Part shown: one piece after another, positions 13,229 to 14,142 of the stretch
Layout: each line of letters opens with the position of its first letter
Numbering within the stretch: position 1 is the stretch's first letter
Source of the DNA: Puniceicoccaceae bacterium K14
Lineage (GTDB): Bacteria; Verrucomicrobiota; Verrucomicrobiia; Opitutales; Opitutaceae
Length of the DNA stretch: 64,000 bases
Assembly (NCBI GenBank): GCA_022538095.1
Contig: JAKYXN010000013.1
Span: forward strand, 1-64,000
Direction: 5' to 3'
Program-made: the position numbers and the translations under genes
The notes under the pieces: model-generated
Seen by the model: the letters and a program-made list of their open reading frames with translations, nothing else
The model's database searches: none
What the model was told of the DNA's origin: nothing

Positions 13229-13267
13229 AAAAAGCAAAGAGGCGCTCGATTCCCGCCGAACGCCTCT
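13229..13267 (-). terminator. Intrinsic terminator of RNA copy 1
   Basis: On the minus strand AGAGGCGTTCG pairs with CGAGCGCCTCT (11 pairs, one G-U) around an eight-base loop and is followed by TTGCTTTTT. Confidence 0.8.
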
Positions 13268-13345
13268 TCTTTGACCATTTTTCCGAGTATGAACCGAACC
13301 TCGCTGGCCTTCCGCAGCCTTAATTGCGAAGTACGCTACATGGTT
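13229..13345 (-). ncRNA. Candidate structured small RNA, copy 1 (promoter-distal of the tandem pair)
   Basis: Read on the minus strand from about 13345. A 5' hairpin (ACTTCGC/GCGAGGT at 13298-13332, with an inner GGC/GCC stem and a CGGAA loop) is followed by the unpaired stretch CGGAAAAATGGTCAA and then an intrinsic terminator. The same layout recurs 235 bases away with compensatory changes in the stems, which argues for a folded RNA product. No convincing peptide is coded. The 5' end is inferred from a GATAAA box at 13351-13356. It may be a free small RNA or an attenuating leader for the GH5 gene. Confidence 0.6.
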
Positions 13346-13350
13346 TAGAC

Positions 13351-13411
13351 TTTATCACATCGATTTAGCCTAATCCACTCCAAGGCGGATTTTGAAGACC
13401 CCGAGACGGAT
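13351..13411 (-). promoter_or_regulatory. Putative activator-type promoter of RNA copy 1
   Basis: Minus-strand order: ATCCGTCTC (13403-13411), ATCCGCCTT (13382-13390), then TGTGATAAA with the -10-like box at 13351-13356. The two nonamers are 21 bases apart, two helical turns. No good -35 box is present, as expected of an activator-dependent promoter. Spacing is identical in copy 2. Confidence 0.5.
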
Positions 13412-13463
13412 ACAGTGGCCTATTTCGTTTCACTCAACAAACTGAACCATTCCCTTGTGTCTG

Positions 13464-13501
13464 AAAAAACAAGAGGCGTCCGATTCCCGTCGAACGCCTC
13501 T
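13464..13501 (-). terminator. Intrinsic terminator of RNA copy 2
   Basis: On the minus strand AGAGGCGTTCG pairs with CGGACGCCTCT (11 pairs, one G-U, at a different position from copy 1) and is followed by TGTTTTTT. Confidence 0.83.
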
Positions 13502-13577
13502 CTATTGACCATTTTTCCGAATATGACAAACACCGCAGACCTTCCGAAGTCTTAAATGCGGCGTTTGCTACATTGGG
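13464..13577 (-). ncRNA. Candidate structured small RNA, copy 2
   Basis: Minus-strand unit matching copy 1. The 5' hairpin AAACGCCGCA/TGCGGTGTTT (13528-13566, ten pairs, one G-U) has an inner GACTT/AGGTC stem. The linker CGGAAAAATGGTCAA follows, then an intrinsic terminator. Relative to copy 1, one outer pair changes from T-A to C-G, one inner pair from G-C to A-T, and a T-G becomes G-T. On the plus strand the wobble pairs would be C-A mismatches, which fixes the RNA strand as minus. The 5' end is inferred from the GATAAT box at 13583-13588. In this copy AACGCC of the first hairpin could also pair with GGCGTT of the terminator, an antiterminator-like option not kept in copy 1. Confidence 0.63.
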
Positions 13578-13582
13578 GATAC

Positions 13583-13643
13583 ATTATCACATAAAATCCA
13601 CGAATTCGACTCTGAGACGGATTTTGGAGACCCTGAGACGGAT
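13583..13643 (-). promoter_or_regulatory. Putative activator-type promoter of RNA copy 2
   Basis: Two exact ATCCGTCTC repeats on the minus strand (13635-13643 and 13614-13622) are spaced by 21 bases. The proximal one starts 34 bases before the GATAAT box (13583-13588), exactly as in copy 1. The distal repeat begins just beyond the stop codon of the His-rich gene. Confidence 0.52.
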
Positions 13644-13653
13644 TCTAATTCAT

Positions 13654-14142
13654 TTAGTGCCCACAGACGCAGGCATATTCCAGGTAATCACAACTTCCGC
13701 ACGAATGAGTAGCCAGGCGAATACGTTCCCGCACTGGATCAGAGTCCTTCGTCTGTCTGATTTCAAGAACTAGCGGCAAAGCCTTCCCCTCCGGAAAACT
13801 GGCGGACGAAACCATCGCATCTCCCTTATCCTCAAAGACCAATTCAGTTGGAGCAGAACGATCTCCCCCCACCACCGTTATAACCTGACCCGATGGCTTT
13901 ACGATTGCTCCATCTTCGTCCAAAAATCGGATTTCGATAAATCGATCATCGGTCAGCAAAAACTCACACGTCACGCCTCCTTTATTAATGACTCGCCCGC
14001 CATTTGGCCCAGCTTTCTTCTTTGAATCAGCATGTGAGTGGCTATCGTGAGTATGCCCATGACCTTCTCCAGCCTCCAACACTGCGCCACAAAAAGTTAG
14101 AGACAGAATTACCGTTAGGATTTTAGATATTTTTGTATTCAT
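13654..14142 (-). CDS. Exported His-rich metal-binding protein of the efflux operon
   Basis: 162 residues with a signal peptide (MNTKISKILTVILSLTFCGA and on to about residue 25). A dense His stretch HGHTHDSHSHADSKKK follows, then GPNGGRV, a beta-rich middle, and a Cys-rich end HSCGSCDYLEYACVCGH. Histidine clusters and the four-cysteine tail point to periplasmic zinc, cobalt or copper binding. It follows the RND pump by 30 bases and is likely the last gene of that operon, acting as a metallochaperone or buffer. No named family is assigned with confidence. Confidence 0.72.
   Translation of the reverse strand: MNTKISKILTVILSLTFCGAVLEAGEGHGHTHDSHSHADSKKKAGPNGGRVINKGGVTCEFLLTDDRFIEIRFLDEDGAIVKPSGQVITVVGGDRSAPTELVFEDKGDAMVSSASFPEGKALPLVLEIRQTKDSDPVRERIRLATHSCGSCDYLEYACVCGH

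Follow-up and report, generated by a model that had tools for sequence, protein, structure and literature searches.

Two predicted tandem transcription units on the minus strand

The window, by which we mean the whole stretch of 64 000 nucleotides analysed here, carries two similar units, copy A and copy B, which are encoded on the minus strand and flanked by a heavy-metal RND operon on one side and a GH5 gene on the other (table 1). As the initial annotation of the locus had proposed, the two copies are related: they are 76% identical across 180 bp. No third copy is present in the 5.7-Mb genome. A and B are built alike. A pair of direct repeats comes first and is followed by a −10 element and a 5′ hairpin; next come a linker that is left unpaired and an intrinsic terminator, whose stem of 13–14 pairs precedes a T tract. 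The linker contains the 16-nt sequence TCGGAAAAATGGTCAA, which does not differ between the copies. The hairpins, linkers and terminators had been described correctly in the initial annotation, but the operator and promoter had been missed. Once these two elements are counted in, each unit extends beyond the hairpins, starting some 70 bp before the RNA does. Each copy is a predicted stand-alone transcription unit.

The final gene of the RND metal efflux operon (13654–14142, minus strand) codes for a 162-aa His-rich protein with the C-terminal sequence CGSCDYLEYACVCGH and no Pfam match.

Table 1. Features of the two units in the window and position of the AraC homologue elsewhere in the genome.
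Feature	Position	Strand	Remarks
Copy A, operator to terminator	13463–13643	minus	
Copy A operator	13606–13643	minus	repeats ATCCGTCTCAGGGTC (13629–13643) and ATCCGTCTCAGAGTC (13608–13622), 21 bp apart
Copy A −10 region	13581–13588	minus	TAATGT (13586–13581), conserved G before; offset shared by 55 operator promoters
Predicted sRNA, copy A	13463–13574	minus	about 112 nt; start from −10 spacing, end from terminator
Copy A 5′ hairpin	13523–13573	minus	TTCGGAA also in inner loop
Copy A linker TCGGAAAAATGGTCAA	13505–13520	minus	invariant, unpaired, proposed pairing seed
Copy A intrinsic terminator stem	13471–13502	minus	T tract to 13463
Copy B, operator to terminator	13229–13411	minus	
Copy B operator	13374–13411	minus	repeats ATCCGTCTCGGGGTC (13397–13411) and ATCCGCCTTGGAGTG (13376–13390)
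Copy B −10 region	13349–13356	minus	TAAAGT (13354–13349)
Predicted sRNA, copy B	13229–13342	minus	about 114 nt
Copy B 5′ hairpin	13289–13341	minus	3 non-standard pairs
Copy B linker TCGGAAAAATGGTCAA	13271–13286	minus	invariant
Copy B intrinsic terminator stem	13236–13269	minus	T tract to 13229
AraC homologue gene	G000:C198:38754–39635		own genome; beside ExbB/ExbD-like genes

Structural conservation between the copies

The structure shared by the copies has 32 base pairs, 29 of which are kept in copy B, against 22 ± 1.8 expected when an equal number of changes is placed randomly (P about 1.5e-4); for the 5′ hairpin by itself, random placement gives P = 0.008. Both sides have changed at four pairs of the 5′ hairpin (C-G/T-A, G-T/T-G and, twice, A-T/G-C), and three terminator pairs differ by one-sided wobble changes. 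The three broken pairs sit in the 5′ hairpin. The compensatory changes first noted in the initial annotation are confirmed by this analysis, as is the choice of strand: the minus strand folds more strongly than the plus strand in copy A (z of −5.8 versus −4.0) and in copy B (−2.3 versus −1.3). The hairpin of copy B is the weaker of the two.

In copy A, the loop of the 5′ hairpin repeats the TTCGGAA..GGTC of the linker (window 13505–13574). Because TTCGGAA also appears in this loop, the hairpin may be an internal duplication.

A conserved peptide starting at the linker ATG (MVNREAF..., MVKEEAF...) was considered and rejected: the ATG is absent from the homologues in genomes G018 and G229 described below, and the frame would cross the terminator. 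The locus had been described as free of any evident peptide, and this description stands.

The pair could in principle be duplicated promoter debris or a mobile repeat devoid of function, since just two tandem copies, 76% identical, exist in the genome. However, the parts best kept between them are the operator, the −10, the linker and the terminator, paired positions have changed together, and non-syntenic homologues with the same part order occur in another genus. We therefore regard this origin as very improbable.

Operator and promoter

The operator consists of two 15-bp direct repeats with a spacing of 21 bp (ATCCGTCTCGGAGCG-N6-ATCCGTCTCGGGGTGGA). In both copies it lies some 30 bp ahead of the predicted start and is followed by an extended −10. 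Specificity was controlled by searching the same genomes with the reversed operator pattern. The operator pair was found in seven of 100 genomes of the family (none for the reversed control) and in 17 of 252, representing five genera (reversed control, 0 of 252). Further tandem repeat pairs occur in the window's own genome, many of them on contig C65, upstream of TonB receptor genes and others.

At 55 distinct operator promoters the −10 lies at a fixed offset (T 0.71, A 0.82 and T 0.80 at positions 19, 20 and 24), and both RNA copies carry it. Because the offset is fixed, the RNAs are predicted to start at about 13574 and 13342 and to be about 112 and 114 nt long. With a promoter directly preceded by two direct repeats at a distance of about 21 bp, both copies have the layout of members of an AraC/PchR-type regulon.

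The predicted regulon behind the operator

The genes behind the operator include a TonB siderophore receptor (TIGR01783), a heme TonB receptor (TIGR01785) and a class II fumarase (TIGR00979), all above the model cut-offs, together with a FecI-like ECF sigma factor with FecR, PepSY_TM proteins and, in Pelagicoccus, a ferritin operon. Class II fumarase is the iron-independent type of this enzyme. The same gene runs include Flavodoxin_1 and ApbE, located downstream of TonB receptors that have the operator in front of them. On account of this gene content, the operator-linked genes are identified as a predicted iron-starvation regulon, for which iron starvation would be the inducing state. Through the shared operator, as far as sequence can tell, the pair of small RNAs (sRNAs) is co-regulated with the iron-acquisition genes. 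The suggested connection with the adjacent metal operon finds no support: the upstream genes encode RND efflux with the His-rich protein, and the operator is that of an iron-acquisition regulon elsewhere in the genome.

Several other proteins recur behind the operator. A small conserved Cys-rich protein (MKLKIK.LCGLKK...), without a Pfam match, was seen at loci L072, L137, L142, L147, L199 and L201; it adjoins ferritin in several Pelagicoccus and is possibly a ferritin partner. Many genomes have a conserved gene pair, made up of L151:18825–19691 and a preceding ORF of about 96–107 aa, with a copy in the window's own genome at C65:35592 (minus strand); neither Pfam nor NCBIfam has a match to the longer protein. 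DUF6607 lipoprotein-like proteins are also recurrent (L151:13489–14793; L068:3087–4274).

Homologues in Pelagicoccus

No Rfam family matches the window at gathering threshold, and the iron sRNA families of Rfam (RyhB, PrrF and others) give no match at E up to 5. When the RNA sequence was used to search the DNA of 57 relatives, only short matches resulted, the best of them lying within the operator. RNA genes missed by such ordinary searches were revealed by reading the sequence 3′ of every operator, and a corrected core pattern, with five sites, completed the set. When a core-plus-terminator covariance model was applied to the 252 genomes, the 26 matches read beyond the known members were ordinary terminators without an operator; a weaker match was the second copy of G018, and the copy of G108 was not listed. 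Occurrence beyond the family was assessed by exact pattern over GTDB contigs, which gave two matches in Pelagicoccus and three in unrelated phyla, the latter taken as chance.

The RNA core was found behind the operator at six more sites in five Pelagicoccus genomes (two in G018 and one each in G108, G228, G229 and G231). The distance from the operator start is 74–81 bp at all six. In the second G018 copy the operator is a degenerate one with six mismatches. Apart from small changes in G231, the six sites preserve the core TTTCGGAAACAC..GTC..TAGAGG, whereas the terminator stems diverge; a GC hairpin follows the core everywhere except in G229, where the contig ends. The 5′ hairpin is limited to the window's genome and, because the Pelagicoccus copies lack it, is taken to be an apparent addition in the window's genus. 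Promoter, operator and terminators of its own, compensatory changes and homologues in another genus support the initial view of a functional multi-copy small RNA on the minus strand.

The homologues have aconitase, response-regulator, cation-efflux-like or AraC genes as neighbours. One of the G018 copies lies directly downstream of an aconitase B-type gene (L140; G018:C12:489067–491310).

These surroundings bear on the proposal that the pair forms a double attenuator of the GH5 gene, to which its position upstream of that gene (start 13132) on the same strand lends some plausibility. Each copy nevertheless has its own operator and promoter, the homologues do not adjoin GH5, and no alternative antiterminator was seen. 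About 97 bp separate the end of copy B's terminator from the GH5 start, with a promoter-like site between copy B and GH5. We give this proposal hardly any credence.

Candidate regulator

AraC genes stand directly upstream of the operator and RNA in G108, G228 and G229, and an AraC-family protein adjoins TonB receptors in genome G011. The window's own genome has a single clear homologue (E 1e-53; next match 3e-9), with which the proteins of these three Pelagicoccus genomes are 47–52% identical; no operator was seen by eye upstream of its gene on contig C198. This PchR-like AraC protein is the probable activator of the operator, and we infer its binding to the repeats from co-occurrence and adjacency. 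The label 'PchR-like' reflects genomic context and what we take to be a resemblance of a motif in the DNA-binding domain; family models match the regulator at the general AraC level only.

Proposed mechanism and candidate target

Given the two transcription-unit-like copies with operator and −10, the content of the regulon, the Pelagicoccus homologues and the regulator adjoining three of these, the pair probably represents AraC-activated sRNAs that are induced by iron starvation and act in trans, working like PrrF1/PrrF2 without being their homologues. Production of the RNAs and repression of targets by pairing are what we infer from this arrangement. On iron starvation or siderophore sensing, the PchR-like activator would bind the two repeats spaced by 21 bp and switch on both RNAs together with the genes for siderophore and heme uptake and the iron-independent fumarase. 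Each RNA, about 112 nt long, would go on to regulate in trans. Its exposed linker (TCATAYTCGGAAAAATGGTCAA), either alone or together with the loop of the 5′ hairpin, would pair with mRNAs of iron-using or iron-sulfur proteins and lower their expression. The invariant linker is the likely pairing seed.

Hfq (PF17209) was not found in the window's genome or in seven relatives, while five control genomes were positive. Since Hfq was not found in any of these eight genomes, the RNA would work unaided or through a different chaperone.

A genome-wide search for complements of the linker gave no clear iron-gene target. Among the 142 genes examined, the best pairing of the linker is with the leader of a cysteine desulfurase gene on contig C65 (17 pairs; −20.3 kcal/mol for copy A and −23.4 kcal/mol for copy B). 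Its P of 0.0025 applies to a single gene and is not significant among all 142, shuffled linkers reaching a similar best score. The gene, at 65857, is a class-V aminotransferase by Pfam, and its leader (L069:5790–5860) holds GACCUUUUCCGGUUAUGA, complementary to the whole sRNA linker. As a predicted target it is suggestive and serves as a lead only.

Another mode of action within the iron regulon may be considered, either sequestration of a CsrA-type protein through repeated GGA or a role as cis leader for the neighbouring genes. In the window copies, GGA is present in the linker and in the loop of the 5′ hairpin, and the terminator loop has it as GGGA, but neither the number of these motifs nor their position is preserved in Pelagicoccus. 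No T tract follows the core and hairpin of G108 and G228, which run directly into the small Cys-rich gene and ferritin; in these two genomes the RNA may serve as a leader or be freed through processing. By contrast, the window copies, both G018 copies and that of G231 stand alone, and those of the window and G018 have strong terminators and unrelated neighbours. Either mode is unlikely to be the main one, and we retain trans-acting, pairing sRNAs as the preferred interpretation.

Comparison with known small RNAs and regulons

The PrrF1 and PrrF2 sRNAs of Pseudomonas are roughly 110 nt in size. They too come from tandem genes that have separate promoters and Rho-independent terminators, and they are tied to iron starvation (PMC10597452); the same layout of two adjacent sRNA genes is present here. 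PrrF is, however, repressed by Fur, whereas our pair has the repeats of an AraC-type activator, lacks an Rfam sequence match and belongs to a genome in which Hfq was not found. RyhB, IsrR, FsrA and MrsI share the iron-sparing role proposed for the pair; among them IsrR is Hfq-independent, and the host of MrsI has no Hfq (PMC9410917). All four differ in being repressed by Fur or IdeR and in having no sequence homology to it.

In Vibrio cholerae, the promoters of the sRNAs TarA and TarB are activated by ToxT. Control of sRNA promoters by an AraC-family activator is thus a point of likeness (PMC3136459), but TarA and TarB belong to a virulence regulon, not to iron. The PchR regulon of Pseudomonas aeruginosa likewise has an AraC-type activator of siderophore uptake genes (PMC8477383), whereas the operator described here also drives a small RNA gene, a fumarase and a FecI-like sigma factor.

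Weak Rfam matches to FopS, Ref1C and RsaE were not shared by copy B and the homologues and were judged to be chance. FopS of Bacteroides (RF04319) aligns weakly with copy A over its full length, at 23.7 bits versus a cut-off of 56, and matches neither copy B nor four Pelagicoccus loci.

Implications

The pair looks like a Verrucomicrobiota counterpart of RyhB and PrrF, the iron-saving RNAs of other bacteria. Full-text literature searches, which left most subscription papers uncovered, gave no description of an iron sRNA in Verrucomicrobiota or of a small RNA in Pelagicoccus. The sRNAs may constitute a new, Hfq-independent family of iron-sparing sRNAs in Verrucomicrobiota, activated together with siderophore uptake by an AraC protein of the PchR type rather than freed from a Fur-type repressor as the cited iron sRNAs are; we consider the case for and against such a family to be evenly balanced. 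In some Pelagicoccus the regulator and sRNA genes lie side by side, and as part of the same reading, held with equal reserve, they could form one module. The system offers a test of whether Verrucomicrobiota regulate by small RNAs, and how they would do so without Hfq, and of whether RNAs that spare iron evolved anew under another kind of transcriptional control. A further yield is a predicted iron regulon and operator for Pelagicoccus and its relatives, a group with cultured strains, in which such tests are feasible.
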